Shown: positions 744-55,773 of the stretch, piece after piece | Numbering within the stretch: position 1 is the first letter of the stretch | Layout of the letters: each line of letters begins with the position of its first letter | Virus record (IMG/VR): IMGVR_UViG_3300025132_000044 | Coordinates: 1 to 57,283 of that record | Reading direction: 5' to 3' (one strand) | Source: a virus | Length of the DNA stretch: 57,283 bases | Notes under the pieces: generated by a model | Database searches by the model: none | Seen by the model: only the letters and a program-made list of their open reading frames with translations | Told to the model about the DNA's origin: nothing | Translations under genes and position numbers: made by a program

Positions 744-1135
744 CACCTAAAACAATTAATCAATCCTGGGCAATACCAGAAAAATTTATTGAAAGATATG
801 GAAAAACATGGGCAGAAATTGATTTTGAAATAAATCCAAAATTATCTAACTACATGTTTAGAAATGATCCATTAAACACAACGGTTGGAACATTATTAAT
901 ATGTGGTAAAAGAATTTCATTAAAATATAAACAATTGATAAATTCTACTACGGTAATGGATCAATATAATGCAGATATATTTTTTAACAAGCCTAATAAA
1001 GATGAAACAATTGCAGTAAATATTTTTAATAATACATTATATTTAAAGAAACATGAAGTAACAAAATTATCAGAAACTATTTCAGATTCTTGTGACACAA
1101 TTATGAAATCTTATAAGTTAGGTCTATATTTATAA
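740..1135 (+). CDS. Hypothetical protein, 131 aa
   Basis: Not recognised. The start codon overlaps the preceding stop (ATGA at 740-743). The protein is soluble, with a beta-rich centre (TVGTLLICGKRISLKYKQL) and a C-terminus of alternating Lys and hydrophobic residues. The last codons (TTA TAA) lie inside a TATATTTATA element at 1125-1134 that may be the promoter of the following small gene, so stop codon and control element share bases. The function is unknown. Confidence 0.65.
   Translation: MTPKTINQSWAIPEKFIERYGKTWAEIDFEINPKLSNYMFRNDPLNTTVGTLLICGKRISLKYKQLINSTTVMDQYNADIFFNKPNKDETIAVNIFNNTLYLKKHEVTKLSETISDSCDTIMKSYKLGLYL
1125..1134 (+). promoter_or_regulatory. TATATTTATA element, candidate late promoter
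   Basis: Contains the TATTTATA core at 1127-1134, 10 bases before the ATG at 1145. It belongs to a recurrent coding-strand motif in this window (see findings). It overlaps the end of the upstream gene. Confidence 0.4.
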
Positions 1136-1144
1136 TAAAGAAAA

Positions 1145-1309
1145 ATGAATAAATATAAATACTTTTTTAAATCTGATACATCAAAAGAATCTATAGGAAA
1201 TGTTACTGCTAAAGATTTAAACGAAGCTTATATTAAAGCATCATATATTAAAAAATTAGCTCCAATGCATTTTAAAGAATTATTTGATGTCGAACAAATT
1301 AATGTATAA
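1145..1309 (+). CDS. Small hypothetical protein, 54 aa
   Basis: The ATG at 1145 is followed by 54 codons and TAA at 1307-1309. The protein begins MNKYKYFFKSDTSKESIG and continues with an alanine/lysine helix (TAKDLNEAYIKASYIKKLAP). Its last codons overlap the start of the next gene (ATG at 1302), which supports real, coupled translation. A candidate promoter element ends 10 bases before the start. The layout (aromatic/basic N-terminus, then one amphipathic helix) recalls small single-domain phage proteins, but I do not know a function. Confidence 0.6.
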   Translation: MNKYKYFFKSDTSKESIGNVTAKDLNEAYIKASYIKKLAPMHFKELFDVEQINV

Positions 1310-1757
1310 TACACTTGAAAATATAACTATTAGATTACCAGAATTAAATTATTTTCAACAGTTATTATATAAAGATAAAATATCATATTTTTTAGAATTA
1401 TTCGAAACTACAATACATTCAACAAATTTTTCTAGCACAACATTACAAGAAGGATTACAAGACTTTTTTAACGAAATATCAGAAGATGAATATGATGAAA
1501 TGCCATTTTTTGAAAGTTATGATATCAATGCTGGAAATAATACTAATCGTGTAGATATTCTTGTTGATAGAGAAAATTTAGTAGTTGAATCTAATAGTTT
1601 AAAAGCAGTACGAAGTATTCGAGATAAATTTTTAGATAATGGATATTTATTAATGCGTGATAAGATTGATGAAAAATTATTTCGCAATGGAAAAATAACA
1701 AAATACCTTAGGGTATATAAAATCATAGGTAGGGCATCCCACTTATGTTATAATTGA
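1302..1757 (+). CDS. Hypothetical protein, 151 aa
   Basis: Not recognised. I choose the ATG at 1302 (MYNTLENITIRLPELN), which overlaps the upstream stop by eight bases; an in-frame ATG at 1284 would add six residues (MMSNKL) inside the upstream gene. The N-terminal half is acidic and helical (FNEISEDEYDEMPFFESYD). The C-terminal half is basic (FRNGKITKYLRVYKIIGRA). No membrane segment or known catalytic motif is visible. It is followed by a short hairpin and the strong ribosome-binding site of the Hsp20 gene. Confidence 0.6.
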   Translation: MYNTLENITIRLPELNYFQQLLYKDKISYFLELFETTIHSTNFSSTTLQEGLQDFFNEISEDEYDEMPFFESYDINAGNNTNRVDILVDRENLVVESNSLKAVRSIRDKFLDNGYLLMRDKIDEKLFRNGKITKYLRVYKIIGRASHLCYN

Positions 1758-1774
1758 GATACGGTAGGTCTCAA
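1754..1774 (+). other. Inverted repeat just after a stop codon
   Basis: Arms TTGAGA and TCTCAA (6 bp) with a 9-base loop overlap the stop of the preceding gene and are followed by an A-rich run. It could be a weak terminator or an RNA-processing stem. There is no U-run, so a classical intrinsic terminator is unlikely. Confidence 0.3.
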
Positions 1775-1816
1775 AAATTAAATTAATAACGGTTAGCTAA
1801 TGCAACCATAAAACAC

Positions 1817-1822
1817 AGGAGG
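1817..1822 (+). promoter_or_regulatory. Full Shine-Dalgarno sequence (AGGAGG) of the Hsp20 gene
   Basis: A perfect AGGAGG lies six bases before the ATG at 1829. Most genes in the window have only AAGGA-like or no recognisable site, so this gene appears tuned for strong initiation. Confidence 0.75.
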
Positions 1823-1828
1823 TTTAAA

Positions 1829-2242
1829 ATGACACATTTTAAAGAAACATTATTACTCAATGATTTCGATTTAGTTTGGAAAAACTTTTTCGATCAAACA
1901 TCTAAATTTTTACCGGTAACATCAAATAAAATGAATTATCCAGTTGATATATTTACAACGGATACTGGAATACAGTTTGAAATTGCTGCAGTAGGTTTAG
2001 AAAAATCTGATATTGAAATATTAACAGAAGGAGAAACGTTAAGAGTTCGATATAACAAAGACAAAGAAGAAAAACGTGAATTTATTCACAAAGGAATCGC
2101 AAAAAGAGCTTTTGATTTTGCTTGGAAAATATCTAAAGAATTAGATTTAACTAAAGCAGGAGCAAAAATGGAAAAAGGATTGTTAGCAATTGATATTCCA
2201 TATGCTAAAGATAGAGCGCCAAAGCGTTTAACAATAAAATAA
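1829..2242 (+). CDS. hsp20: Small heat shock protein, Hsp20/alpha-crystallin family
   Basis: The 137-residue protein has the Hsp20 layout: a short hydrophobic N-terminus (DFDLVWKNFFDQ), then an alpha-crystallin domain from about residue 36 (YPVDIFTTDTGIQFEIAAVG) through LEKSDIEILTEGETLRVRY to the last strands (KGLLAIDIPY), and a basic tail ending in LTIK. Hsp20 proteins hold unfolding proteins in an ATP-independent way, and T4-like marine phages often carry one, presumably to protect virion assembly. The start follows a perfect AGGAGG. Length is normal for the family. It stands apart from its neighbours, preceded by a hairpin, and may be expressed separately. Confidence 0.85.
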   Translation: MTHFKETLLLNDFDLVWKNFFDQTSKFLPVTSNKMNYPVDIFTTDTGIQFEIAAVGLEKSDIEILTEGETLRVRYNKDKEEKREFIHKGIAKRAFDFAWKISKELDLTKAGAKMEKGLLAIDIPYAKDRAPKRLTIK

Positions 2243-2247
2243 GTTAT

Positions 2248-2451
2248 ATGAGACCTACCAACTCATTATGTTTTCTACCAACTATAGAATTTCAAAATAA
2301 AAGATTTAATGTTCGTAGATTAGTTAAAGAAGATCCAGATGAAAATATTGAATTTTGGAAATCATTAATTGATCATGATATTGTATTACGTAAAGATGGT
2401 TATTTATGGTTTTTAATTGAAATTTCAGATGCAGAAATTATTGAAGAATGA
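2248..2451 (+). CDS. Hypothetical protein, 67 aa
   Basis: Not recognised. The ATG at 2248 lies five bases after the Hsp20 stop. The protein ends in a hydrophobic/acidic stretch (YLWFLIEISDAEIIEE) and has a basic middle (FQNKRFNVRRLVKEDPDE). Its last codons overlap the next start by four bases (ATGA), which supports translation. No function can be proposed. Confidence 0.6.
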   Translation: MRPTNSLCFLPTIEFQNKRFNVRRLVKEDPDENIEFWKSLIDHDIVLRKDGYLWFLIEISDAEIIEE

Positions 2452-2948: not shown

Positions 2949-2953
2949 TCTAA

Positions 2954-2961
2954 TATTTATT
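2954..2961 (+). promoter_or_regulatory. TATTTATT element, candidate late promoter
   Basis: Lies 14 bases before the ATG at 2976, with AAAAGGA between. A variant of the recurrent TATTTATA motif. Confidence 0.4.
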
Positions 2962-2975
2962 AAAAAAGGAAAATT

Positions 2976-3131
2976 ATGGATAAAATAAAAAACATAGTTA
3001 ATTCATCATGGTTTAAAGCAGCTGCTATAGGCGGTATAGGTCTTTTACTATTATTAGATAAAAATATATTTTACTCTGGTATTGCATTTGGTATTGCAGT
3101 AAGAGAGTTTTTATTAGTATTTAAAAAATAA
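2976..3131 (+). CDS. Small membrane protein, 51 aa
   Basis: The ATG at 2976 is preceded by AAAAGGA and the frame runs 51 codons to TAA at 3129-3131. Two hydrophobic segments are visible: about residues 14-28 (KAAAIGGIGLLLLLD) and 32-49 (FYSGIAFGIAVREFLLVF), with basic residues at both termini. This suggests a two-helix hairpin inserted in the host inner membrane. Small phage proteins of this shape include holins and membrane-modifying proteins, but nothing here proves a lysis role. The start is supported by the promoter-like element and ribosome-binding site. Confidence 0.65.
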   Translation: MDKIKNIVNSSWFKAAAIGGIGLLLLLDKNIFYSGIAFGIAVREFLLVFKK

Positions 3132-3150
3132 AAACAAGAAAGGTTATAAA

Positions 3151-3333
3151 ATGTCATCAAGATTTACAAAAAAAGAACAAGTTTTAGATTTAGTAGTCGA
3201 CTCTGCAGATATAGTTCGATCATTAGGTAGAAGTATTGAAAAGGGTAAAGTAGATCCAGCATCTGCATTAAATAATTTAGCATCAGCTTTAAGAAAGTTA
3301 GAAACTGCTACTGAGCATTTAAGAAAATCATGA
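3151..3333 (+). CDS. Small helical hypothetical protein, 60 aa
   Basis: Preceded by AAAGG with good spacing. The whole protein reads as amphipathic helices (VLDLVVDSADIVRSLGRSIE, then DPASALNNLASALRKLETAT). The stop overlaps the start of the following membrane protein by four bases (ATGA), so the two are coupled. The function is unknown. Confidence 0.65.
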   Translation: MSSRFTKKEQVLDLVVDSADIVRSLGRSIEKGKVDPASALNNLASALRKLETATEHLRKS

Positions 3334-4283: not shown

Positions 4284-4426
4284 AAAAAGAAAAATCAACA
4301 AAAAAGTTACAATGTAGATGTAAAGACTGTACTAATATAGTAGAAGTTGCAAAAACATCTTTATCAGTAGTATGTTCTTTTTGCACATTTAAAATGGCAG
4401 AAGGCATATTGGAATATTCCAAATAA
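4280..4426 (+). CDS. Small Cys-rich (zinc-ribbon-like) protein, 48 aa
   Basis: The ATG at 4280 overlaps the upstream stop, and the frame ends at TAA 4424-4426. The sequence has five cysteines in two knuckle-like groups: C12-x-C14-x2-C17 and C32-x2-C35. The paired CxxC spacing suggests one structural zinc site. After the second knuckle comes a short helix (KMAEGILEYSK). Such tiny zinc ribbons in phages are often RNA-polymerase- or DNA-associated, but there is no direct clue here. Confidence 0.6.
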   Translation: MKKEKSTKKLQCRCKDCTNIVEVAKTSLSVVCSFCTFKMAEGILEYSK

Positions 4427-4440
4427 TTTATTATAATAAA
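4427..4440 (+). promoter_or_regulatory. TATAAT-containing palindrome, candidate promoter
   Basis: TTTATTATAATAAA is a perfect 14-base palindrome between a stop codon and the ATG at 4450 of the HD-domain gene. It contains TATAAT. Related sequences precede the 55152 gene, the DUF4294-like gene and the primase gene. Confidence 0.35.
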
Positions 4441-4449: not shown

Positions 4450-5226
4450 ATGTTAGAAGCTGAAAAAATTAAATCCAATTGGGATGAATATAGAAAAAGA
4501 GTTAATACATTATTTCCAGATAGAGCGGATAAATTAAATAAACTATATGATGAATACGAAGAAAGAATAGTTATGATGCCAGCATCGTCAGTTGCACATT
4601 ATCATAATGCATTTGCTGGAGGATATATAGATCATGTACTTAGAGTAATGGACTGTGTAGAAAAATTATATGATTCTTGGAAAAGTATGGGATCTGATAT
4701 GTCTGGATATTCTAAAGAAGAAATGATGTTTGCTGCTATGCATCACGATTTAGGAAAATGCGGATTTCCAGGTAAAGGAAGAGAAGTATATCAAGTAGAA
4801 ACATCTGATTGGCATAGAAAAAATATGGGAAGAATGTATAAACATAATCAAAATATTCCTTTCACAATGGTGCCAGATTTATCTATTTATTTGCTACAAA
4901 AATATGATATAAAATTATCTTGGAATGAATATCAAGCTATAAGAATACACGACGGTATATATGATGATGCAAATAAACCATATTTTATTGCTAGATCAGC
5001 ACAAGCTAAATTAAAAAATAATTTACCATTAATATTACATCACGCAGATCATATGGCATCTCAAATTGAATATGAAAGATGGAGAAATAAAGAAAATAAT
5101 TCTGCTAAACCTGTTAATGTTAAATCAAAAGCTACTAAAAAGTCAGCTATAAAAAATTTAGCAGAACAAAATCCAGACATCGATAAATCAATTACAGATA
5201 TATTTAAAACATTTAATGCATCATGA
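4450..5226 (+). CDS. HD-domain phosphohydrolase
   Basis: The 258-residue protein carries the HD-superfamily metal-binding pattern: His62 in GGYIDHVLRV, His99-Asp100 in AAMHHDLGKCG, His167 in AIRIHDG, and the LILHHADH cluster (His197/His198/Asp200). HD proteins use a metal centre to hydrolyse phosphate esters, often nucleotides or signalling nucleotides. Residues 212-258 form a Lys-rich tail of low similarity to the domain. Substrate cannot be read from sequence; dNTP or cyclic/linear nucleotide hydrolysis are the main options, and a counter-defence role is possible. A TATAAT-bearing palindrome lies just upstream, and the stop overlaps the next start (ATGA). Confidence 0.8.
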   Translation: MLEAEKIKSNWDEYRKRVNTLFPDRADKLNKLYDEYEERIVMMPASSVAHYHNAFAGGYIDHVLRVMDCVEKLYDSWKSMGSDMSGYSKEEMMFAAMHHDLGKCGFPGKGREVYQVETSDWHRKNMGRMYKHNQNIPFTMVPDLSIYLLQKYDIKLSWNEYQAIRIHDGIYDDANKPYFIARSAQAKLKNNLPLILHHADHMASQIEYERWRNKENNSAKPVNVKSKATKKSAIKNLAEQNPDIDKSITDIFKTFNAS

Positions 5227-5516
5227 TTGAAATTATATTATTAATATTATTATCAGGAACATTATCTTATTTTGTTTATAGAGCGTATATATTAGCTGGT
5301 ACAGTTGCTGATCAAGAAGAATATATTCAAGAATTAGAAGATATGTCTCAATACATGTATGATCAAATTGAAGAATCATATAATCAAATGAAAAGAATTG
5401 ATCATAAAGGATCTTTTGCAGAAGATGATGAAGCAGGTACTACATTTACATTATTAAAAGACGTAGTAATAAATTTAGAAAAGGAATTTAATGCCGAGAC
5501 GGAAGAAAAAAAGTAA
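5223..5516 (+). CDS. Membrane-anchored coiled-coil protein, 97 aa
   Basis: Residues 2-22 (IEIILLILLSGTLSYFVYRA) form a single N-terminal membrane helix. Residues 28-60 are an acidic amphipathic helix (QEEYIQELEDMSQYMYDQIE). The following KGSFAEDDEAGTTF motif is one I associate with a conserved hypothetical protein of T4-like marine phages. The function is unknown. It overlaps both neighbours: four bases upstream and 26 bases downstream, where the sigma-factor gene starts inside it. Confidence 0.65.
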   Translation: MIEIILLILLSGTLSYFVYRAYILAGTVADQEEYIQELEDMSQYMYDQIEESYNQMKRIDHKGSFAEDDEAGTTFTLLKDVVINLEKEFNAETEEKK

Positions 5517-6192
5517 TAGATATTGGACAAAAGTAACAGAATATGCTGTTGCATCATATAACCGATGTAACGATAAACAAATTCTTAAAGAACGAATATA
5601 TCGTAGATTTATATTTCCAGCTTTTATTAAATTAACAGAAAACTTAATTAATAAAATGAAACCAGAATATATAGATTCTTCATTTACAGATTTACAAAAC
5701 GATTTAGTTACGTATTTAACTATGAGATTGGATAAATTTAATCCAAATGCTGGTAAAGCATATTCATATTATACTAGAACTGCGTTTAATTATTTAATAG
5801 CTGAAAATCAAAAAGGATATTCTAAATTAAAAAAGACTACAGAACCAATAAATATCGACGAACAACGTAATGTTCAAATAGAAATACATAATAATGAAAT
5901 GAAGGACACATTACGACACTTCATGGATGCATATGTACAATATTGTTATGATAATTTAAATTTTATTTTTACAAACGAATCAGATATACATGTTGCTGAT
6001 TCAATATTGCATATATTTGAAAATCGTCAAAATATAGAACAATATAATAAAAAAGCATTATATGTATTCATCAGAGAGCGTACAGGATTACAAACTAATA
6101 ATATTACAAGGGTAATTAAAGTCTTAAAAAAATTATACGTAGAAAAGTTTGAAGAATATGAACGTACAGAATACGTGAATTTACCCTTTTGA
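5491..6192 (+). CDS. 55: gp55-like sigma factor for late transcription
   Basis: The 233-residue basic protein has a region 2-like block at about residues 64-110: DLQNDLVTYLTMRLDKFNPN followed by GKAYSYYTRTAFNYLIAENQ. The F-x-P-x-x-G-K-A-x-S-Y signature is characteristic of gp55-type late sigma factors of T4-like marine phages, which direct host RNA polymerase to late promoters with the sliding clamp. The C-terminal half (about 185-225) is a helical, basic segment that may bind DNA or polymerase. T4 gp55 is somewhat shorter (185 aa). AAAAGGA inside the upstream gene sets the start at 5491. It is the obvious candidate to read the TATTTATA elements. A generic sigma-like protein is the alternative. 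Confidence 0.6.
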   Translation: MPRRKKKSNRYWTKVTEYAVASYNRCNDKQILKERIYRRFIFPAFIKLTENLINKMKPEYIDSSFTDLQNDLVTYLTMRLDKFNPNAGKAYSYYTRTAFNYLIAENQKGYSKLKKTTEPINIDEQRNVQIEIHNNEMKDTLRHFMDAYVQYCYDNLNFIFTNESDIHVADSILHIFENRQNIEQYNKKALYVFIRERTGLQTNNITRVIKVLKKLYVEKFEEYERTEYVNLPF

Positions 6193-6201
6193 TATTTATT
6201 A
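6193..6201 (+). promoter_or_regulatory. TATTTATTA element, candidate late promoter
   Basis: Directly follows the sigma-factor stop, 15 bases before the ATG at 6217, with AAAAGGA between. It precedes the first gene of the baseplate cluster. Confidence 0.45.
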
Positions 6202-7717: not shown

Positions 7718-7718
7718 T

Positions 7719-8738: not shown

Positions 8739-8744
8739 TGTTAA

Positions 8745-8752
8745 TATTTATA
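8745..8752 (+). promoter_or_regulatory. TATTTATA element, candidate late promoter
   Basis: Lies 17 bases before the ATG at 8770, in the short gap after the 7719-8738 gene. Confidence 0.45.
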
Positions 8753-18779: not shown

Positions 18780-18795
18780 AAATTTTTGATTATGA

Positions 18796-18803
18796 TATTT
18801 ATT
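18796..18803 (+). promoter_or_regulatory. TATTTATT element, candidate late promoter
   Basis: Lies 19 bases before the ATG at 18823, with AAAGGA between, in the 43-base gap after the repeat-tailed gene. Confidence 0.45.
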
Positions 18804-20619: not shown

Positions 20620-20635
20620 TTTTTTCATTGATTTT

Positions 20636-20669
20636 AACCCTGTTATATTTATATTAAAATAACAGGGTT
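20636..20669 (+). other. 11-bp inverted repeat with a promoter-like loop
   Basis: Arms AACCCTGTTAT (20636-20646) and ATAACAGGGTT (20659-20669) pair perfectly around a 12-base loop ATTTATATTAAA. The TATTTATA element (20646-20653) spans the left arm/loop border. The structure could terminate the preceding transcript while the same DNA starts the next one. No long U-run follows on the + strand. Confidence 0.6.
20646..20653 (+). promoter_or_regulatory. TATTTATA element inside a hairpin, candidate late promoter
   Basis: Lies 25 bases before the ATG at 20679, at the left edge of the hairpin loop described above. Confidence 0.45.
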
Positions 20670-20678
20670 TAAACTATT

Positions 20679-22292: not shown

Positions 22293-22837
22293 TGATTAAG
22301 TTAAAAAAAATATTAACAGAATTAAGTAGTGATCGTGCAGATCAATTATTAGATAAAATTAAAAATAAACAATTTTCATTTATAGGAAGTGGAGATAACG
22401 GAAAAGTATATCAACTTGATGGAGAAGATTTATTATTTAAAACAACTACTGAACCAGATGAAAAAGCAGTAGCTGATGTTATAGTAGGTCGTTCTAATGA
22501 ATTTAATACATTTATTCCAGTACATTATAGTCATGATACTAAAAACATGTATATTTTAAGTAGAGCTGAAAATTTATCTGAACGAGAAAAATCTGAGTTA
22601 CAATTATTTTATAATAATTTTAAACAATATATGCGACAAGAAGGTCCTAATGCTACAATATTTGATTATTTAAATACAGAAGAAACAAGACAATACTCAA
22701 CTATATTAATTAATTTTTTACGAGCTTTAGAACAACAAGTCAGAAAAACTAACATTGGAGATCTAGATCAAACATTAGATTTTAAACCAGACAACATAAT
22801 GAAATGGAATGGAAATCTGGTAATGATAGATTGGTAA
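22292..22837 (+). CDS. Minimal protein-kinase-fold protein, 181 aa
   Basis: The protein keeps the core kinase motifs in order: a glycine loop (IGSGDNGKVY, 31-40), a VAIK-type lysine (LLFKTT, Lys50), a catalytic loop (TLDFKPDNIM, with Asp163, Lys165 and Asn168) and a DFG-type aspartate in VMIDW (Asp180). It stops one residue later, so the activation segment and the whole distal C-lobe are missing. At 181 aa it is far smaller than ordinary kinases. The N-terminus (IKLKKILTEL) resembles other head/tail proteins here. It could be a compact active kinase, an aminoglycoside-phosphotransferase-like enzyme or a structural pseudokinase. It is coupled to the LamG protein by TAATG. Confidence 0.6.
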   Translation: MIKLKKILTELSSDRADQLLDKIKNKQFSFIGSGDNGKVYQLDGEDLLFKTTTEPDEKAVADVIVGRSNEFNTFIPVHYSHDTKNMYILSRAENLSEREKSELQLFYNNFKQYMRQEGPNATIFDYLNTEETRQYSTILINFLRALEQQVRKTNIGDLDQTLDFKPDNIMKWNGNLVMIDW

Positions 22838-22845
22838 TATTTATA
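22838..22845 (+). promoter_or_regulatory. TATTTATA element, candidate late promoter
   Basis: Begins immediately after the stop of the kinase-like gene and ends four bases before the ATG at 22850. If it is a -10 element, the transcript start would fall inside this gene, so here the motif may instead serve another gene or role. Confidence 0.3.
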
Positions 22846-26236: not shown

Positions 26237-26241
26237 TATTA

Positions 26242-26249
26242 TATTTATT
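26242..26249 (+). promoter_or_regulatory. TATTTATT element, candidate late promoter
   Basis: Lies 19 bases before the ATG at 26269 with AGGA between. Confidence 0.45.
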
Positions 26250-30700: not shown

Positions 30701-30882
30701 ACGAAGGTTGGGGTAGTTTAGATAGAGAACATATTTCTGCAGTTACTAATTTATTTGAATATTTTAGAACCAAATTTGATTTTTCTATCATTATATCGCA
30801 TGTCGAATCAATGAGAGATATGGTAGATAACTTAATTGAAGTAAATAAGATTAAAAATTTCAGCCAGATTCTACATACATAA
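27772..30882 (+). CDS. 47-46: Fused SbcD-SbcC (gp47-gp46) recombination nuclease/ATPase
   Basis: One 1036-residue chain holds both halves of the Mre11-Rad50 complex. The nuclease half has HISDIH (18-23), VVTGDIVHSK (56-64) and LGNHDMN (90-96). The ATPase half starts near residue 375 (FEFNNMFSYG) with Walker A ANASGKSS (407-414), a long coiled coil with the zinc-hook CKYC (Cys717/Cys720), the signature LTSGMERFISSLA (about 941-954) and Walker B FIAIDEGWGS (974-983). T4 encodes these as separate genes. The complex processes DNA ends for recombination-dependent replication and helps degrade host DNA. The fusion would enforce 1:1 stoichiometry. It overlaps the primase gene. Confidence 0.9.
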   Translation: MEIKTLKTNIQSIDKIFHISDIHIRTLKRHKEYQEVFDTLFLHIAQHATDQSICVVTGDIVHSKLDMSPELINMLTKFFNGFHIPTIVILGNHDMNLNNLYRLDAISPILDVIDNTNIYFIKENGLFKFANVVFNHMAVDVAPKDYIQAKDFDAHYKVALHHGAVHNAKTDIGFQISNDHVTTDLFEGHDLTLLGDIHKPAQFLNKEKTIGYPGSLIQQNHGEALNHGILVWDLPDRCSEFIEIENKYGYVTFEVDNGKIINSPKRVPNKPRVRIKFNDTDASDIKKLIATIRKKYKVQDISIQRSANHIDNNQNGSIAIGNVRDVEHQNNLITTFIEDNYPEADKKELDAIRHINRTINSKLPILESVRNVTWHPISFEFNNMFSYGENNKVDFSKLSDVIGLFAANASGKSSLLDAITYTIFDKCSKTSKSKEVLNNKKSGFKGVFKFMLNNKLYTIEREGITLKHGHVKVNVNFYNEDQNLNGEERSDTNKSIRRYLGTYDDFILTAFSLQADNNNFIEKSQRERKDLLSQFLDTTVFEQLYHLASEEIKETSGKLKEYKKTDFGLIIRESDDIILKNQDKIIELEKGDTDLQESRNNLQNQIVELIESKQPMSYDGPNIKKLQQDESSLIKEIEDIDINCNSLENKINSNKSNISSYQTTINKDQFEKISNELSDIIKKKDVISNEISTLTSLITSQKKKIDHLKTHEYDDTCKYCIENIFVKDALEAKRLLPGNELHLKNKIGAAEFFQQRIDRLNSSIHEYQEKINLKNKIEKLELQLQILESDIQTKESELETNAERQELFRKNESAITYNETIDKKIESKKKLISETTTLIKDITDKIKSNHGEIEVAKTQKKTALEQLDTYKQLETEYKAYEYYLQSVKRDGVPYELIKKALPKIETEINNVLNQVVDFNMVLNTDGKNINGYIIYDEDNFWPLELTSGMERFISSLAIRVALINVSALPRPNFIAIDEGWGSLDREHISAVTNLFEYFRTKFDFSIIISHVESMRDMVDNLIEVNKIKNFSQILHT

Positions 30883-30890
30883 TATTTATA
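30883..30890 (+). promoter_or_regulatory. TATTTATA element, candidate late promoter of the fibre gene
   Basis: Starts right after the SbcDC stop and lies 18 bases before the ATG at 30909. Confidence 0.5.
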
Positions 30891-42900: not shown

Positions 42901-43472
42901 CAGGAGATACATTTATAAATGCTAAAAGTGGCAAAACACTTCATTTACGAATAAATAATTCATCGATAGCTAGTATAACCTCAACCGGATTTAATAATTT
43001 ATATTCAACCGGTAAAATAGGATATGATACAACAGATTATATTACATTCACAAATAATACTAGAATGGATGTTTATATAAATAATAGTAATGAATTTAGA
43101 TTTGAATCAGATGGTGACTTTCATGCTGATGGAGATGTTATAGCATCATCAACTACTGTATCTGATTCTAGATTAAAAGACAATATAATACCAATTGGTG
43201 GAGCGTTAGACAAAATAAAATCTTTAAGAGGTGTTTCATATACATGGAATTCTGGAAAGAAAAAAGGTAAACAAGATATAGGTTTAATAGCACAAGAAGT
43301 AGAAGAAGTATTACCAGAAATAGTTAAAGATAAAAAAATGCCATTAATGGATGGTATAGATTCAAATGAAACATATAAAACTATTGACTATGAAAAAATT
43401 ATTGCAGTACTTGTAGAAGCAGTTAAAGATCAACAAACACAAATAGACGAATTAAAAAGAAAAATTAAATAA
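30909..43472 (+). CDS. Giant tail fibre, 4187 aa, with module array and S74 chaperone
   Basis: Residues 1-1180 are an N-terminal attachment and shaft region with recurring strand motifs (SGQITASRVLLEGGTI-like). Residues 1182-3085 are 16 modules of two types: type A (about 123-139 aa; starting AK-L-L-T-V-T-S-D-S-Q) and type B (100-113 aa; starting VTAFLTNE), joined by Gly-x-Asp collagen-like linkers such as GSDGTDGTD. Residues about 3090-4080 hold further shaft motifs (GGTIGGFDLTSTQINS). The end (from about 4083; VSDSRLKDNIIPIGG, GLIAQEVEEVLPEIV) is an S74 intramolecular chaperone with the self-cleavage Ser and Lys five residues apart. The fibre probably recognises host surface glycans or proteins. 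Confidence 0.9.
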   Translation: MKKAIANLQNLDRLDTYITDTSLLSPNIFNITLLPDKLTLGKNLFKLKGVPNIFQPGTDLQIEILDSNGNPIYHEVVNKIDPDNSRFIAIYIYDNTPSGDCLITLAATLDSYNNESIPASWRNIVNAKWSVTTPVDTKSPNVNNIIFDSLNLPEATVSEQIGVRLDRQYNDNTQFPIFSDGLIEFETKENSSIAKITGGEFRPDMVGGTLTVTSPVNPTPLSTIPTSSARIYSSTIKKVLSKDFIQLDNKFVFTLSQSLSQHQYTKFDPSSYTIEYEAAPNYIGTQHSESFALTEITKLDPAIGDISRIKLYINSSATIGTFELINDILLEPTEIFVDATGSILPDVGVGFFTSQSIIDEYWESHTYIGKTEDGAPTLTFTTSSLNNAVSILPSIDYSNDDSVLIFQTKESLPGVFVENSEYKIIFDAIATKNSLSNFQSPKLSIYLSGSSFFNDVVNTLNGALPVSLGRKIGELVIDANQQRLDDQQFVFNADKTGNGSLLFVIESGEWQFSDIRTLTSAENGFTENYTRFRTDIPVKHKSNNELQFKIEYYNIAGVKSEHETIIGNKVFEGGNRYIDGDFSMLTGSLTVADSLNSGVEIVGLQNTGYIRSLGYEGFNQATGSGGGFLLFSGSALPQQSETSYSGVGLELVANENNFFKYRTDPSILDIHTQTFFLGNEATQFISGSAGQLEISSSGYHIQNNGDITASRILIEGGTITDNVTILGSVSANSILTPAIINGNPSNENNASSSISDQGFARFVSASIAGFVVNTEEIKSADESLRLKSEGQITASRVLLEGGTITDGVTILGSVTANSIQTPATIGGSPSTPANASSSISSTGLAIFKSASIGGWDITTGSIEGGNLIMKPEGILQTKDFASGFKGWKISSQGNGTAEFENVRIRGTLRTTTFEKESVNAIGGQVWVANATTITGSGVAATDTTMSVKNASGFAVDEILLAKKVDSTGFQTEYLLVESASLDGDNSNEDEVFGRIYVQRGYGSGSGGDFVGDLASTSQSYDEGQVIVSTGKIGTGYIKINANPNDTDTPFIDIVERTGSGLYDVQLKARLGDLKGLANSDRVFGNSNPGFGLQTDNVFLQGGIRANTGSIGGIHLEDNKLYIGVGNHANADTGFYVDSSSKFSLGDKLTWDGSALTVRGQLRLDSGQNVQDAINEATASNTAKTLVLTSDSQIFAFESASDSTADPTNIIFKIAQQNLNASISASNITITTPAGAAVTNFDFDTGSVSPNSSVPPLYSGVVSGSLTFAGALDAGGLNSDKTNLPVTIVATRDGLSDTTTIFKIQGGSSGSDGVSGQSAKSLVASVDSQVFAFDSASDNTADPSNIIFSFNQQNLTRALASTDVQVKTAGGSDITGFSFDNNSITSGTGIVSGSIVFASALGSGGVGADKANLPITITASLDDLTDIIKVFKVQGGSSGSDGTDGTDAVTAFLTNEAHTFASLNNGTIVSFTGGTSDMEVFEGITNVTANYTFTGSNSDGVTATSSSNSLTITGMSSDSGSINFTAKSASVSLTKTMTLAKSKQGTQGLSGANAKLLTVTSDSQVFSFPSASSNTPIDNDILFIINQQNLSTEIDSSEISITTPGGSAITGFSLKTDVANNSGLFTGEVSASISFTGATDAGGLNSNKSNLPLTITVSSGSLNDTTKIFKLEGGSSGSDGTDGTDGVTAFLTNESHTFPADQTGTIASFAGGETEMEVFEGITNVTTNYTFTGSNSEGVTATSSSNSLTITGLSKDSGSVNFTAKSASVSITKTMSLAKSRQGQSSITAFLTNESQTFPANSSGVVSSFADGTTIMEVFNGLNNVTSSFAFTGSNTDGVTATSSSNEIQVTGMAHDSGSITFTAKSGSGDGLVSISKIFSLAKSRAGVDGSGASARMLSVTTDSQIFSFASASSDIALDDDILIIINHQNLTSSPLPSDITIKDSNGTTITNPTFVSSSTSGTGQVSGSITFSSTLSGTKSKLPITIEASKDSVSDITTVFGLNGGSDGTDGVNGATAKSLIASVDSQVFSFLSASDSTADPTSIIFSFNQQNLNAAIDSSDVTISTAGGNVTNFDFDNNSVTNSGGNFSGIASGSISFAGALDAGGLSSTKTNLPVTISATKNSLTDTIKIFKVQGGSSGSDGSDGSDGTDAVTAFLTNEAHTFAAQNNGTVVSFTGGTTDMEVFEGITNVTSNYTFTGSNSDGVTATSSSNSLTITGMSHDSGSVNFTAKSASVSLTKTMTLAKSKQGTQGLSGANAKLLTVTSDSQVFAFPSASSNDAVDNDILFIINQQNLSTEIDSSEISITNPAGSAITGFSLKTDVANNSGLFTGEVSASITFTGATDAGGLNSDKSNLPLTITVTSGSLTDTTKIFKLEGGSSGSDGSDGAAGSDGADAVTAFLTNEAHTFAADQAGNIASFAGGTTDMEVFEGITNVTANYTFTGSNSEGVTATSSSNSLTITGLSQDSGSVNFTAKSASVSITKTMSLVKSRQGQSAITAFLTNESQTFPAAANGTISDFSVGTTTMQVFEGLTNVTSSFAFTGSNSDGVTATSSSNEIQITGMSHDSGSITFTAKSGSGDGLVSISKVFALAKSRAGTDGTPGSSAKLITLTTDSQIFSFPSASSSDAIDDDILFIINQQNLDSAVVTGNITIKDSGGSTLTNPSLETDVTSGTGQVSGSITFSGTVGGDKTKLPLTIEVARDSVSDTTRIFKLEGGSSGSDGSDGSDGQSAITAFLTNESHTFPAAANGTVPDFSTGTSDMIVFLGLDNVTSNFTFTGSNSDGVTATSSSNSLTITGMSHDSGSINFTAVSASVSLTKTMNLAKSKTGETGSTAKTLTLTTDSQIFSFLSASSNDAIDDDILFTINQQNLSGTIGSGDITISTAGGVPTLITNFSLDNNSVTSGTGIVSGSLTFTGATNAGGLNSTKSNLPVTITVTKDSLTDTTRIFKLEGGSSGSDGSDGAAGADGAPAVTAFLTNEAHTFPADVNGTISSFTEGSSSMVVFVGLENSTSSFSYSKTDSTGVTSTLSGTDGNIIAISAMAHDSGSVDITATSASVSVTKTMTLAKSKQGAQGTAGATGATGPNFDFLTGSISEINTQGGLNAGLLMTSDVLGFHGNISAGDGTNAKVTDFISFLDSSGNFFIGSQSSGHFAYSQATGELLISGSNVDIRTPKFFLGQENVQFISGSDAKIEISSSNFHLTPEGNVTMSGTITATAGTIGGFEITDTQINSSNDNLILKSSGQVTASTLLLTGGSVAGMPVSSDEISVGSVLKLKDSGQITGSKVLFSGGTIGGFDLTSTQINSTNNNLILKDSGQITGSNVLFDGGTIGGFNISSDAISDTSNNLVLSGSGKITASAGLIGGFDLTSGELRGGVENQSYISQSTSITLVSGSFQGQVQNNKNSIGGISQISTNATNFEGVLDPATIVNTTTNPSASEDVFVVAFAEGAYVNAFTNTATSAATSIAKVAGFSNLEAGPVEFSQVSLDGFTGNAVDTCNFNFITSTAATPLTPDVFNPSSGYESSSVINHSLTRTLTKIKLDSDNRSISINTSSFGSDGIQLEVDSSTNRPRFFAGSNTGSFFKYDGTDIAISASNFSVLDGDITANRIELAEYSKADYFVFKLITITEATSGSYFEEYTLSGDTYYKLVLDGTLGGSIAQSVRINVTPEYPIGMIQPPVKLNNQGHEVTIESGIGTGIGYSSRVAVSGSNIYSYGFSADNDDWFNQLFQTRVYPAGGSTTYGGGSVGDLGASAGRVMVQNIGQRFKFVRSAFDFRLLGISSYDTTADGNFNSQGLINFFSGLRASNGPIGIGITGTNKMTAGYALEVNNIVDRAGTTTDDVLFHGNVSGSVFSGSFVGDGSGLTGVSGGGGGSGDITAVTAGNGLTGGGTTGAVSLAVGAGTGIDVTSTTVAVDVSDFMSNGSNNRVVTATGADGMNAEANMTFDGTNLLVSDDTAGAYANIGRTRVGYTAYTDYAHISHRDLTSAGEYALLQSAAGDTFINAKSGKTLHLRINNSSIASITSTGFNNLYSTGKIGYDTTDYITFTNNTRMDVYINNSNEFRFESDGDFHADGDVIASSTTVSDSRLKDNIIPIGGALDKIKSLRGVSYTWNSGKKKGKQDIGLIAQEVEEVLPEIVKDKKMPLMDGIDSNETYKTIDYEKIIAVLVEAVKDQQTQIDELKRKIK
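34860..36956 (+). repeat. Six-module superunit, first copy (A-B-A-B-B-A)
   Basis: Modules A2-B1-A3-B2-B3-A4 have lengths 130, 105, 133, 100, 108 and 123 aa. They match the next block in order, type and length. Confidence 0.8.
36957..39104 (+). repeat. Six-module superunit, second copy (A-B-A-B-B-A)
   Basis: Modules A5-B4-A6-B5-B6-A7 have lengths 136, 105, 139, 100, 109 and 127 aa. The copy abuts the first one exactly and points to an ancient duplication of about 2.1 kb. Confidence 0.8.
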
Positions 43473-44808: not shown

Positions 44809-44836
44809 AATTAACTAATGAATTATTTAAAAAGGA

Positions 44837-44844
44837 TATTTATA
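44837..44844 (+). promoter_or_regulatory. TATTTATA element, candidate late promoter
   Basis: Ends four bases before the ATG at 44849, with the same layout as at 22838 (TATTTATATAAAATG). A normal -10 role at this distance would give a transcript starting inside the gene. Confidence 0.35.
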
Positions 44845-44848: not shown

Positions 44849-46852
44849 ATGAATAATGTAACAGTATTATTTCCAGGAGGCTTTAAGCCAATAACAGGAG
44901 CTCATATGGCTCTTGCACAACGTTACGCACAAAATCCTAGCGTCGACAAAGTTATTATGTTAATAGGTCCAAAAGAACGTCAAGGTATAACACAACAAAA
45001 TAGTATTAAAATGTTTAATTTATTGAATAGAAATAATAACATTGAAATACAAACTACAAAATTTAATTCGCCAATTATGGCTGCATACGAATATTTATTT
45101 GCATTGCCACAAGATAATCAAGGACAATATGCATTAGCAGCTTCTGAAAAAGATGAAGATTATGTTCGTGTTAAATCTTTTTTACCAAATGTAGATAAAT
45201 ATAAAACAATAGGAGATCGTAACGGAAGAAAAATACCAAACGGGGTTGATGCAGTTGAATTAACAGTTTCTGTAGATCCTTTAAAATATAAAGATGGTGA
45301 AGATAAAGGTAAATCAATATCTGCATCTGCAGTAAGAGCGGCATTAAATGCAGATTCATATAGTAAATTCAAAGCAAGTTATCCAGGATATGATGAATCT
45401 ATTATAAAAAATATTTGGCAAATGCTTGGCGGAGCTCCTACATATAGAGATGTAATGGGAGTAAAAGAACAGATGGGTGTTGGTTACATGACTCCAAAAG
45501 GCACAAAGGCACATTCTAAAAAAATTAAAAAATTAAGAAAATTTTTAAATAAATCAGATGATAAAGGATTTGAATATAATTTTAATCAATTTCCAAAAAC
45601 AGTATTTGGTACTCCATATATAAATGAAGGCGGATTAGCTGGACATATGGCACATCCATTTGATAAAGATCAATCACAATCATTATCATTTGCAGATATG
45701 AAAGAAATGATTGCGAGGGGATTGCAAGGTAGATTAGATATAGAAGATGCTGTTACTGAAAAAACCGATGGACAGAATATTTTTATGACAGTTAAAGACG
45801 GCCAAGTAAAATTTGCTAGAAATAAAGGAGAACGTATAAATCCATTAACAGTTAAAGAACTTCAAGCAAAGTTTGCAGGAAGAGGTTCTTTGTCTGATTC
45901 ATTTGGAGAAGCTGGCACAGATTTAGCTGCAGCATTTTCAAAAGTAGGAACAGATAAATTAAATAGTATATTCCAAAATGGTAAAGTTTTTGCTAATATG
46001 GAAATTATTTATCCAGCAACAGCTAACGTTATTGCATATGATGCAGCATTTCTTCAATTTCATAATTTAGTTGAATATGATGAAAATGGTAATGTTGTAC
46101 AAACTGATATGTCTGGTGGAAATACGGTACAAAAAGCAATCACTGATGCAAATGCTGATCTACAAAATACATTTAATTTAATACCTCCGCAAAAGATAAA
46201 AATTGGTGCAGTTGAAGATTTTCAAGATTATCAAGATGCATTATTTAAAGAATTAGATCAATTACGTGATAGATATAAATTAAGTGATAAAGATCCAATT
46301 GCAGAATATCATAAAGCTTGGTGGAAAGACGTTATACGTGAAAAATCAAAAAGTTTTGATTATGATATATCTGACGAAATGTTAGATACATTAATGAATA
46401 GATGGTCATTTAATATTAAAACTCCTAGAATTGATCAATTAGCTAAAATGATAGATAACGAAGAATTTGTACAATGGCTTCGAGTATTTGATAAAAAAGA
46501 TTTTAAAAAATATCAAAAACAAAATGTAGAACCATTTGAATCAATATTTTTAAAACTAGGAGCAGAAATAATGAAAAATGCTTCTAATTTTTTAGCAGCA
46601 AATCCTGCTAAAGCAGTACAAGATATTAGAAAAGACATAGCACAAGTTATTAGAGATTTAAGATCTACTGGAGATATATCTAAAATGGAGATGTTAAAAA
46701 CACAATTAGATCGTATAAAGCGATTAGGAGGATTTGAAAAAATAGTCCCTATAGAAGGAATTGTATTCACATACGGCGGTAATACATTTAAATTAACCGG
46801 TGCATTTGCACCTATAAATCAGATACTAGGAACATTAAAGTATATTAGATAA
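44849..46852 (+). CDS. Cytidylyltransferase-like domain fused to a DNA/RNA-ligase-like domain
   Basis: Residues 1-195 are a nucleotidyltransferase (NMNAT-like) domain: FPGGFKPITGAHMAL (8-22) is the HxGH-type motif and GKSISASAVRAAL (about 153-165) the SxSxxR-type motif. The second part (about 250-667) carries covalent-nucleotidyltransferase motifs: motif I EKTDGQN (Lys305), a motif III-like FANMEIIY (about 383-390), motif IV IEGIVF (Glu636) and motif V FKLTG (Lys648). Ligases or capping-type enzymes form a lysyl-NMP there. Marine T4-like phages carry related separate genes. Together they may salvage NAD or repair nucleic acid ends. Reaction and substrate are inferred. Confidence 0.7.
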   Translation: MNNVTVLFPGGFKPITGAHMALAQRYAQNPSVDKVIMLIGPKERQGITQQNSIKMFNLLNRNNNIEIQTTKFNSPIMAAYEYLFALPQDNQGQYALAASEKDEDYVRVKSFLPNVDKYKTIGDRNGRKIPNGVDAVELTVSVDPLKYKDGEDKGKSISASAVRAALNADSYSKFKASYPGYDESIIKNIWQMLGGAPTYRDVMGVKEQMGVGYMTPKGTKAHSKKIKKLRKFLNKSDDKGFEYNFNQFPKTVFGTPYINEGGLAGHMAHPFDKDQSQSLSFADMKEMIARGLQGRLDIEDAVTEKTDGQNIFMTVKDGQVKFARNKGERINPLTVKELQAKFAGRGSLSDSFGEAGTDLAAAFSKVGTDKLNSIFQNGKVFANMEIIYPATANVIAYDAAFLQFHNLVEYDENGNVVQTDMSGGNTVQKAITDANADLQNTFNLIPPQKIKIGAVEDFQDYQDALFKELDQLRDRYKLSDKDPIAEYHKAWWKDVIREKSKSFDYDISDEMLDTLMNRWSFNIKTPRIDQLAKMIDNEEFVQWLRVFDKKDFKKYQKQNVEPFESIFLKLGAEIMKNASNFLAANPAKAVQDIRKDIAQVIRDLRSTGDISKMEMLKTQLDRIKRLGGFEKIVPIEGIVFTYGGNTFKLTGAFAPINQILGTLKYIR

Positions 46853-46860
46853 TATTTATA
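46853..46860 (+). promoter_or_regulatory. TATTTATA element, candidate late promoter
   Basis: Starts right after the preceding stop and lies 25 bases before the ATG at 46886, with AGGA between. Confidence 0.5.
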
Positions 46861-50668: not shown

Positions 50669-50675
50669 TTAGTTA

Positions 50676-50683
50676 TATTTATA
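50676..50683 (+). promoter_or_regulatory. TATTTATA element, candidate late promoter of portal gene
   Basis: Lies 19 bases before the ATG at 50703 in the gap between terminase and portal genes. Confidence 0.5.
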
Positions 50684-52517: not shown

Positions 52518-52526
52518 TTTACTTTA

Positions 52527-52534
52527 TATTTATA
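52527..52534 (+). promoter_or_regulatory. TATTTATA element, candidate late promoter
   Basis: Lies 21 bases before the ATG at 52556. Confidence 0.5.
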
Positions 52535-54120: not shown

Positions 54121-54121
54121 T

Positions 54122-54748
54122 ATGAATAAAGCTTTATTAGTAGAATATATGCCATTTAAACCAATTGGTGCTATGAATGAACAATCAGGAGCTAAATTTG
54201 GTGTTCCTGGAGGATTGGTAGTACAAGGAGTATTACAACGAGCAGGTGCCAAAAATCAAAATGGTAGAGTATATCCAAAAAATATATTAGATCGTGAAGC
54301 TAAAAAATATCAAACAGATTATATTGATCAGAATAGAGCATTAGGCGAATTAGACCATCCAGATTCTTCAGTTGTTAATTTAAATAATGTATCACACAAT
54401 GTTTTAAAAATGTGGTGGGATGGTGATGATTTATGTGGAGCTGTACAAATATTAGAAACACCAGCTGGAAAAATTTTAAAATCATTATTTAAAGCTGGTA
54501 TTACATTAGGAATATCAAGTAGAGGTTTAGGAAGCGTAAAAGAATTATATAAAGAATCTGCAGTAGAAGTTCAAGAAGATTTTGAATTAATATGTTTTGA
54601 TTTTGTATCTAATCCATCAACCCATGGAGCATTTTTAAGACCAATGAATGAATCAAAAAAAATTAATAACAAAAAAAATTATCAACAAGTAAATAATATT
54701 ATTACATCAATATTGTGTGATAGTGGCAAATGTAGGATTTTACCATGA
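54122..54748 (+). CDS. 21: Prohead maturation protease (gp21)
   Basis: The 208-residue protein shows the T4-type prohead protease layout: VVQGVLQRAGAKNQNGRVYP near the start, the catalytic His79 in ALGELDHPDSS, and the catalytic Ser132/Ser133 region LGISSRGLGSV (129-139), then FVSNPSTHGAFL. It cleaves scaffold, major capsid and internal proteins during maturation and then itself. T4 gp21 is 212 aa. It lies between the acidic head protein and conserved small genes, in the standard gene order before gp22. Confidence 0.88.
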   Translation: MNKALLVEYMPFKPIGAMNEQSGAKFGVPGGLVVQGVLQRAGAKNQNGRVYPKNILDREAKKYQTDYIDQNRALGELDHPDSSVVNLNNVSHNVLKMWWDGDDLCGAVQILETPAGKILKSLFKAGITLGISSRGLGSVKELYKESAVEVQEDFELICFDFVSNPSTHGAFLRPMNESKKINNKKNYQQVNNIITSILCDSGKCRILP

Positions 54749-55110
54749 GAATAAAAGAATTATTAGAAGCATTAGAAAGAGAACCAATACAAATAACTAC
54801 AGAACAAAAACAAGAATTTTTGCAGTCTGTTAAATCTTTTTCTCAATTAGGTGAAGGTGTTTATAGCAAAACAAATTTAAAAGAATTATGTGAAAAAGTA
54901 AAGTATATGGTTGAAATGGCTAATCAAGTTACACTATCTGAAGGAGATTGGTTTGACGGAATTACCGTTAATAGAAACATGAAAGAAATTGCTAATTCAT
55001 ATAAAGTATTTGAAAAAACAGCTCAAGAAATGAATGTTTTACAAGAAAGATTAACTGCTGCATATGAAGATATTGGAACAGGCTTGGGTAGATATTTTGA
55101 AATAGATTAA
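54745..55110 (+). CDS. Conserved T4-like phage protein, 121 aa
   Basis: A helical protein with WFDGITVNRNMKEIANSYKV and ERLTAAYEDIGTGLGRYFEI near the end. I know this layout (W-F-D, K-R-N-M-K-E, Y-E-D-x-G) as a conserved small protein of the head region in T4-like phages. Function is not known. The start overlaps the gp21 stop by four bases (ATGA), so it is translated together with the protease. Confidence 0.6.
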   Translation: MRIKELLEALEREPIQITTEQKQEFLQSVKSFSQLGEGVYSKTNLKELCEKVKYMVEMANQVTLSEGDWFDGITVNRNMKEIANSYKVFEKTAQEMNVLQERLTAAYEDIGTGLGRYFEID

Positions 55111-55130
55111 TTTTGATAATTGAAAAAAAA

Positions 55131-55142
55131 TTATTATAATAA
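55131..55142 (+). promoter_or_regulatory. TATAAT-containing palindrome, candidate promoter
   Basis: TTATTATAATAA is a perfect 12-base palindrome 9 bases before the ATG at 55152 with AAAGGA between. It is nearly the same as the element at 4427-4440. Confidence 0.35.
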
Positions 55143-55151
55143 AGGAAATAG

Positions 55152-55526
55152 ATGTCAAATATAAATAATATGTATCATCAGCATTTTGGTTTAAAGAAAA
55201 CAAATGAAGCAGATCTGGTAAATAAAATATCAGACTATAAGGGAGGATTTCTTTATAAACTAATAGATCCAGCAACTGCAGGAAATGTAAAAGCTGATAT
55301 CCAAGCATTTTTGAATAAAAAAGGAATGCATGTTATTAAAACAAAATTTAACGACGCAGCTGGTAAAGGATTCTTTTATGTTAGATTAGGAGAAGACCCT
55401 GCTAAAGAATCACAAAGAATACAAGGATTTGTAAGTCAATTACCAGAAGTTTCAAAATTTAAATTTACATTAAGACCAATACAAAAACAAGTTACAAATA
55501 ATTCAGATAATGAACAAACAATCTAA
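55152..55526 (+). CDS. Hypothetical protein, 124 aa
   Basis: Not recognised. The ATG follows AAAGGA and the TATAAT palindrome. The protein has an alpha/beta character (NVKADIQAFLNKKGMHVIKT; AAGKGFFYVRLGEDPAKESQ) that could be a small ferredoxin-like domain. It overlaps the next gene by 17 bases. It lies inside the head cassette, yet has an element like those of auxiliary genes. Confidence 0.55.
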   Translation: MSNINNMYHQHFGLKKTNEADLVNKISDYKGGFLYKLIDPATAGNVKADIQAFLNKKGMHVIKTKFNDAAGKGFFYVRLGEDPAKESQRIQGFVSQLPEVSKFKFTLRPIQKQVTNNSDNEQTI

Positions 55527-55746
55527 ACACCACAAATCAATAGTTCCAGGAAATGCATTTTCAACAAAAGTAATAGGCAAAGATATAAATTTTGCAATTA
55601 GAAATTGGAAAAAACAAACTAAAACATCTGGTATACTAGATATATTAAAATCAAAACAAGAATTTCAAAAAGCAAGTATTTTAAAAAGACAAATGCTTTC
55701 TGCAGCTAAATACAAACAATATATTCAAACATTAAAAGAAGATTAA
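55510..55746 (+). CDS. Small basic protein resembling ribosomal protein bS21
   Basis: The 78-residue basic protein has NFAIRNWKKQTKTSGILDIL at about 27-46, followed by basic KQEFQKASILKRQMLSAAKY. This resembles bS21, with the consensus A-L-R-R-F-K-R followed by S-G-I-L-x-E-L-R and Y-E-K-P-S-x-x-R. Homologues of bS21 are known from some marine phages, where they may bias host ribosomes. The YEKPS part is not well kept (FQKAS), so this is a suggestion. It starts within the preceding gene and ends before the leader of the scaffold gene. Confidence 0.45.
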   Translation: MNKQSKHHKSIVPGNAFSTKVIGKDINFAIRNWKKQTKTSGILDILKSKQEFQKASILKRQMLSAAKYKQYIQTLKED

Positions 55747-55765
55747 TCTTTTTTTACTTACTCCA

Positions 55766-55773
55766 TATTTATA
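55766..55773 (+). promoter_or_regulatory. TATTTATA element, candidate late promoter of gp22/gp23
   Basis: Lies 97 bases before the ATG at 55871, so the transcript would carry a leader with two hairpins. It is the longest leader in the window. Confidence 0.5.

Follow-up and report, generated by a model that had tools for sequence, protein, structure and literature searches.

Genes and features in the window

The window, by which we mean the whole 57,283-nucleotide stretch of DNA that was analysed, comes from an uncultured T4-like phage (IMG/VR record IMGVR_UViG_3300025132_000044) whose relatives infect Bacteroidota. All of its genes point right. Within it, coding-strand copies of the octamer ATATTTAT precede genes, alongside a gene for a putative sigma factor, a promoter-like sequence of another class, two stem-loops and the beginning of a capsid gene. 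In the list below, distances to the ATG are measured from the end of the 8-mer used in an earlier sequence-only reading of this DNA unless the motif start is stated, and fractions give the orthologs in which the site is kept.

1126..1133, + strand: ATATTTAT site before ORF 1145, distance 10, overlapping the upstream gene's 3' end; 2/2 non-redundant orthologs
2953..2960, + strand: ATATTTAT site before ORF 2976, distance 14; kept 7/8
4409..4437, + strand: promoter-like sequence of another class, TTGGAA...TTATTATAAT, preceding the operon 4450-6192, to which the sigma-like gene belongs
5491..6192, + strand: protein of 233 aa, sigma70-like but divergent, a candidate for the factor that recognises the late promoter
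6192..6199, + strand: ATATTTAT site before gene 6217, distance 16, sharing sequence with the sigma-like gene's stop codon; kept 27/63
8744..8751, + strand: ATATTTAT site before gene 8770, the first of the baseplate block, distance 17; kept 12/12
18795..18802, + strand: ATATTTAT site before gene 18823, distance 19; kept 4/4
20632..20673, + strand: hairpin AACCCTGTTAT...ATAACAGGGTT, with the 20645 site in its loop
20645..20652, + strand: ATATTTAT site before gene 20679, distance 25, in the hairpin loop; 29/29 orthologs
22837..22844, + strand: ATATTTAT site before gene 22850, distance 4; 13 from motif start to ATG
26241..26248, + strand: ATATTTAT site before gene 26269, distance 19
30882..30889, + strand: ATATTTAT site before gene 30909 (4187 aa), distance 18; kept 8/9
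44836..44843, + strand: ATATTTAT site before gene 44849, distance 4; 13 from motif start to ATG; kept 20/20
46852..46859, + strand: ATATTTAT site before gene 46886, distance 25; kept 15/15
50675..50682, + strand: ATATTTAT site before portal gene 50703 (PHROG), distance 19; kept 30/40
52526..52533, + strand: ATATTTAT site before gene 52556, distance 21; kept 42/43
55765..55772, + strand: ATATTTAT site before gene 55871, distance 97; 106 nt from motif start to ATG
55780..55799, + strand: stem-loop ACGCTAT...ATAGCGT where the capsid-block mRNA is predicted to begin, from an alignment of relatives
56987..57283, + strand: start of a T4-type major capsid gene, cut by the window end; 55% identity to the capsid of Flavobacterium phage immuto, 107 aa

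At 6192, 22837, 30882 and 46852 the site touches or overlaps the stop codon of the gene before it. The last site heads the major-capsid block, and in aligned relatives the equivalent position holds ATATTTAT or ATATATAT.

The motif is enriched in gaps on the coding strand

The sequence-only reading had listed 14 sites, all of which are present, and had placed them usually 10-25 bases before the ATG, a spacing found at 11 of the 14 (gene 55871 lies at 97, and genes 22850 and 44849 at 4). The core in the window gaps is ATATTTAT[A/T] on the coding strand, one base to the left of that reading's 8-mer; we rejected TATTTATA as the core because ATATTTAT[A/T] performs better. In the gaps extended by 10 nt (1454 nt), ATATTTAT occurs 14 times on the coding strand and never on the other, against a mean of 1.07 and a maximum of 6 in 1000 shuffles. 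The corresponding figures for TATTTATA are 10 and 1 (shuffle mean 1.12, maximum 5). The comparison with shuffled sequence that the reading had proposed shows enrichment for gaps and the coding strand only: across the whole window, neither TATTTATA (23 on both strands versus a shuffle mean of 23.0) nor TATTTATW (44 versus 50.0 in shuffles) is in excess. Whole-window counting alone would have meant rejecting the motif.

The same genes carry the motif across a large phage family

Marine and freshwater phages of a large family carry the motif before the same genes. It is kept upstream of orthologs of site-bearing genes in 194 of 243 non-redundant regions, and it occurs in 4 of 392 such regions for orthologs of genes that have no site in the window. 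Among pooled relatives, ATATTTATA is found in 111 of 306 unique gaps (0.06 expected), with its reverse complement in none. For ATATTTAT, the gap counts are 37 versus 1 in the near-full relative G001 and 21 versus 1 in the cultured immuto. In immuto, 8 of 21 structural genes and none of 20 metabolism genes have the motif immediately in front of them; within 4 kb, these numbers become 20/21 and 4/20. As positive controls, the same method recovered the coding-strand T4 late box TATAAATA in T4 (24 versus 0.7 expected) and in cyanophage S-CAM9 (7 versus 0.2). Over the 240 kb tested, ATATTTAT is not enriched in the uncultured phage LR756508, though the sigma-like family is present there (33%), and RM378 is without the motif.

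Downstream adenines and a hairpin point to a rightward element

In a logo of 150 unique sites, positions +12 and +13 (counting from the start of the motif) are each A in 93%, compared with 48% and 42% for the same 8-mer inside genes. Positions +8 to +13 are almost only A/T, and no -33/-35 box appears upstream. The position of these downstream bases is constant relative to the motif and not relative to the ATG. Measured from the start of the motif, distances to the ATG show a sharp peak at 12-13, and four relatives share a spacing of 13 at gene 44849. The earlier reading had seen the four-base distances as a problem for a -10 role; given this peak they are no obstacle, and fit leaderless mRNAs.

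At 20645, the hairpin surrounding the site is present in 25 of 29 orthologs, with two-sided changes in 6 of 10 pairs (covariation). Its 3' arm begins close to the predicted transcription start, and in many relatives a T run follows the stem, as in an intrinsic terminator. The gene family downstream (20679) is partly similar to an immuto region annotated as hypothetical and tail fibre. With a promoter in the loop, read-through RNA would carry the hairpin and late RNA would not. At the capsid block, gene 55871 has a long structured leader, and its stem-loop has no Rfam match. Terminators just upstream of sites are modest in G006, Mel and immuto, and a crude detector found none in the window; we therefore do not use them as an argument.

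An RNA-level element UAUUUAUA, acting as a processing site or translation signal in polycistronic mRNA leaders, would also lie mostly near start codons, be strand-specific and yield downstream 5' ends. We consider it quite unlikely: the downstream bases are fixed relative to the motif, the site can be 97 nt from the ATG or on an upstream stop codon, it sits in a hairpin loop in 25 of 29 orthologs at one gene, and its core is common to a promoter class with an upstream box. This early-type class of immuto-like phages, which in immuto itself stands before small early-type genes, reads GTTG-N20-TATATTTA[A/G]G and has the same core on the same strand as the late motif.

The motif had been described as the reverse complement of the T4 late promoter, a description that is misleading and arises because the motif is near-symmetric. 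The hairpin, the +12/+13 adenines, the gene spacing and the immuto early-type promoters together indicate a rightward -10/-7 type element. A left-facing T4-type TATAAATA promoter making antisense RNA would account for the reverse strand reading TATAAATA(T), yet there is no target gene to the left of sites in this rightward genome, and it is to the right that the hairpin's 3' arm, the two conserved adenines and the spacing to an ATG are found. TATAAATA itself has a single coding-strand copy in the window gaps, against 14 of ATATTTAT. We give the left-facing promoter next to no weight.

A divergent sigma-like protein is a candidate reader

The sequence-only reading had also named a gp55-like factor at 5491. 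A sigma-family protein is plausible here: the protein family matches gp55 weakly but consistently, and sigma region 2 weakly, and the profile matches belong to orthologs, not to the window protein. In immuto the family is represented by gp118. The gp55 profile phrog_234 picks the orthologs in immuto (E 0.008) and G003 (E 0.0135) as the sole match in each genome, with none in G001, G002, G006 or Mel-JY01, and Sigma70_r2 picks the G003 ortholog (E 0.011). By sequence, the window protein has no useful match in PHROGs, Pfam or PDB. Folding used an alignment without the immuto and Mel rows; sigma factors headed the Foldseek hits, and in a first search nearly every chain listed was of the sigma70 family, with all Foldseek E values above 0.09, and hhalign probabilities for sigma matches were 23-48%, so that every sigma match is individually weak. 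Y97 of gp55 aligns with an invariant Tyr. LSm4 matches to the protein were weak, and we rejected them as chance. A search for related loci with the Mel homolog as query found nothing. A gp44-type clamp loader is present in G001 and Mel-JY01, with none recognisable in immuto, G002 or G003; gp33 was not found, and the gp33 and gp45 profiles matched T4 only.

A model for late transcription

The motif resembles a re-lettered classic T4 late promoter and marks the starts of late gene blocks. With considerable confidence, we read ATATTTAT[A/T]WW(A)AA on the coding strand as the late promoter of this T4-like lineage, following T4 logic; we infer its start point, its timing and its pairing with a sigma factor from sequence. 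Host RNA polymerase with a phage gp55-like sigma, most likely the 5491-6192 protein, would read the motif as a lone -10/-7 element with no -33/-35 box. Transcription would start ~12-13 nt past the first motif base, at the conserved AA. An ATG placed 12-13 nt after the start of the motif would leave the mRNA leaderless; otherwise its leader would usually be about 10-25 nt. At 20645, the two RNA forms would be distinguished by the hairpin, as at T4 gene e. Of the earlier proposal of a late promoter adapted to a Bacteroidota polymerase, what survives is a phage late promoter in a Bacteroidota-linked lineage, with a gp55-like factor as its probable reader; the claim that the motif reads the other way is not supported.

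Comparison with known promoter systems

Our literature search found no paper describing late promoters of such phages. In this large lineage the box has changed, the sigma candidate can barely be recognised, and some close relatives have a clamp loader while others do not. It is a natural experiment in how a phage late sigma shifts specificity with the host polymerase and in whether clamp coupling is required. The cultured member immuto makes the late-promoter reading testable, and with the motif, late genes and transcription units can be called on uncultured contigs by the hundred.

The T4 late promoter combines the box TATAAATA with gp33, gp45 and the sigma70-family phage factor gp55 (PMC2988020, PMC7892883); according to a review, the late boxes of T4, KVP40, 44RR, S-PM2 and Aeh1 are TATAAATA or close to it. 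Like that promoter, the motif is an 8-bp box near -10 with no -35 box, AT-rich just downstream and ahead of structural genes, and its putative reader would also be a sigma70-family phage factor. Unlike it, the box is ATATTTAT: with the first A at -12, it matches the T4 box except for TT in place of AA at -9/-8, which are then gp55 base-pocket positions. The gp55 candidate is barely detectable, no gp33 was found, and immuto-like relatives are without a recognisable gp44-type clamp loader. Tentatively, a T4-type late system may have been re-specified for a Bacteroidota polymerase, keeping the A(-12) pocket while its residues and the -9/-8 bases changed together; in the immuto branch it may work with no T4 sliding-clamp loader, uncoupled from a T4-type activating clamp.

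The -9/-8 TT is close to the T run of the Bacteroidota sigma-A -7 element TAnnTTTG, a likeness that had been pointed out from the sequence and that extends to the preceding A, with A and TTT at the same spacing. It breaks down at the nearly invariant G(-5), which is A here, at T-12, which is not conserved, and at the missing -33 box (TTTG in the host), for which the immuto early-type class has GTTG. A host housekeeping variant (sigma-A), or the canonical RpoD-like sigma that G001 and G006 encode and that could be involved, might read the motif with no special late factor; the shared A and TTT favour this, as does the weakness of the -33 box in F. johnsoniae (PMC6847099). We judge it improbable, given the changed positions, the separate GTTG class in immuto, and the fact that immuto carries the late motif but no Sigma70_r2 match.

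The 20645 arrangement recalls the hairpin with a nested late promoter at T4 gene e and soc (PMC3014915), where likewise the promoter lies in the hairpin region and late mRNA would lose the 5' arm. In contrast to T4, the site of this phage is in the loop, and many relatives add the T run after the stem.

A conserved element precedes late genes

The 57,283-base window, with 29% GC and every gene rightward, covers the late-gene portion of a T4-like phage genome and is a virus record in its own right.

Landmark genes of the window
9226 and 9678, rightward: baseplate wedge proteins
26837, rightward: primase
49088, rightward: terminase
50703, rightward: portal
56987, rightward: gp23-type capsid gene, start only

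Terminase comparison identified Microcystis phage Mel-JY01 (57%) and Flavobacterium phage immuto (53%) as the nearest named relatives, alongside very many IMG/VR contigs. One 4187-aa gene fills 30909-43472; its positional counterpart in the relative G001 was called at 1949 aa (33820). A Hsp20-type small heat-shock protein gene (1829-2242) has a leader with a strong Shine-Dalgarno-like sequence (ACAGGAGGTTTAAA).

The sequence-only reading had described a short motif recurring before genes. Counted on both strands of the entire window, TATTTATA sits at chance level (23 seen, 23.0 expected), and enrichment over shuffled sequence emerges only for gaps and the coding strand. There, ATATTTAT occurs 14 times, where 1000 shuffles averaged 1.07 and never exceeded 6, and is absent from the other strand, confirming the motif before genes. 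Among close relatives, ATATTTATA occupies 111 of 306 unique gaps and its reverse complement 0 of 306 (0.06 expected). Enrichment is equally clear in the near-full relative G001, in G006 and in immuto, and weaker in Mel-JY01 (20 versus 5 gaps). As positive controls, gap counting recovered TATAAATA in T4 and cyanophage S-CAM9 in the known orientation.

For every window gene we then took the 70-base upstream stretches of its orthologs and reduced them to clearly different sequences; orthologs and gene starts came from mechanical calling, with a simple mismatch threshold to define non-redundancy. Orthologs of motif-bearing genes retain the motif in 194 of 243 upstream regions, compared with 4 of 392 for genes lacking it, which is our strongest single result. 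Retention was 42/43 for 52556, 20/20 for 44849, 15/15 for 46886, 30/40 for the portal gene and 26/26 for 20679 (29/29 non-redundant orthologs in a separate hairpin survey). The motif is real and strongly conserved. It is most likely a late promoter, with predicted timing, start points and sigma pairing.

Gaps of Rhodothermus phage RM378 (L270, L382-L385) are rich in a different motif, TTATTTAAA, on both strands, and TATTTAAA occurs in 27 and 17 gaps on the two strands. Mel-JY01 (L085-L088) has CTTGCATA on the coding strand of 10 gaps and reversed in 0; it is possibly that phage's own early promoter element.

Shape, predicted start point and direction

Bases after the core are nearly all A/T across 150 unique gap sites, with 93% A at both +12 and +13; +14 and +15 are unconserved, and the -33/-35 region holds no conserved signal. 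Intragenic copies of the same 8-mer lack this A pair (A in 48% at +12, 42% at +13). The T4 late box is numbered -13 to -6. It lies roughly one turn ahead of the start site (PMC2988020), and flavobacterial promoters run from T-12 A-11 to +1 (PMC6847099); both geometries would place +1 at +11 to +13 of the motif. Spacing from motif start to ATG spikes at 12-13 (10/150 sites; 8/40 in the immuto group), as expected from leaderless mRNAs, a 5.5% minority in Flavobacterium (PMC9723704); few sites of the window group fall at 14-20, before a broad hump at 21-36. The four-base gap to ATG at 22837 and 44836, earlier regarded as a problem, fits this reading, both sites belonging to the 12-13 class. At 44849, the spacing of 13 recurs in four relatives; in others the start codon is the same but the leader is longer.

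Three features point to a rightward element. First, a second class, found in immuto-like phages ahead of genes that are small and presumably early, reads GTTG, ~20 bases, then TATATTTA[A/G]GTAT (n = 23). A similar GTTG-type class lies at 168-170 kb in G001. It shares the ATATTTA core with the late class in the same direction, but only the GTTG class has an upstream box. Second, the motif before 20679 lies inside a hairpin loop, and 25 of 29 non-redundant orthologs have the stem, an unbiased count. Pairing reaches 95% of cells in an alignment of 16 sequences, a percentage biased upward because most rows came from a stem-requiring scan; two-sided changes add to the survey, numbering 19 versus 4.6 in shuffles, with far lower values when slid. 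With the predicted start point lying close to the beginning of the 3' arm, the hairpin would not form in late RNA. Third, a long conserved leader, opening with a stem-loop just past the predicted start, precedes 55871 and the capsid gene that follows.

That leader (55765-55870; alignment A6) comprises a 5' stem-loop, ACGCTAT...ATAGCGT, a second conserved stretch, TTCTATTAAGATT...AATAATCTTA-TTCC, and TTAAGGAG ahead of the ATG. An Rfam search gave no match.

A sigma-like candidate and the clamp

The 233-aa product of 5491-6192 belongs to a family found in the window group, immuto (gp118, 33%), Mel-JY01 (39%) and the uncultured phage LR756508 (33%). A gp55-like factor, as proposed for this position, is a plausible reading with weak matches. 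Against whole genomes, the gp55 profile matched only family members, in immuto (E 0.008) and the relative G003 (E 0.0135), and Sigma70_r2 matched the G003 member (E 0.011; T4 gp55 itself, 0.0045). The sequence libraries searched gave the family no name. Two AlphaFold models are all-helical (pLDDT 79 and 81, pTM 0.46 and 0.61); sigma70-family chains dominate the PDB matches of the first and lead those of the second, none at E <0.09.

Ahead of operon 4450-6192, which contains this candidate, stands another promoter-like class, TTGGAA...TTATTATAAT; this would suit a middle gene. The related TTGG/TTGA...TTATTATAATAAA class, at 4428, 25654, 26822 and 55131 and many times in loci L255-L263, precedes genes for phosphohydrolase, primase and other non-structural proteins and is possibly a middle promoter.

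G001 and G006 also encode a 247-aa RpoD-like sigma (L263:9381-10124, G001 169381-170124) adjoining early-type promoters. Its best cellular matches are nearly all Bacteroidota (30-38%), supporting a Bacteroidota host for this group. Immuto lacks it, which leaves the 5491 family as what the phages with the late motif share.

A T4-type clamp loader and a family B polymerase occur in G001 and Mel-JY01. Immuto (L081-L084), annotated with family A polymerases, and the relatives G002 and G003 are, by contrast, T4-like phages in which the loader profile found no gp44-type match. Late transcription in immuto may be either clamp-free or served by the host clamp. Profiles for gp45 and the coactivator gp33 matched T4 only, a weak result given that a clamp is expected in Mel-JY01 and G001. 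A 235-aa protein adjoining the G001 loader genes (L260:17047-17754) is a candidate sliding clamp by position; its Mel-JY01 homolog had no PDB match.

Relation to the T4 late promoter

If the first A of (n)ATATTTA is placed at -12, the motif departs from T4 TATAAATA at -9 and -8 only. In gp55, the pockets for -12, -9 and -8 are formed by Y97, N13/H95 and T99 (PMC7892883). In a weak profile alignment, the counterpart of Y97 is an invariant Tyr, residue Y93 in the window protein, that of H95 is Tyr and that of T99 is Thr or Gly; given this alignment and the assumed motif register, a match of pocket residues in the 5491 family is a suggestion only. The late element is most likely a variant of a known late-promoter type rather than a new type.
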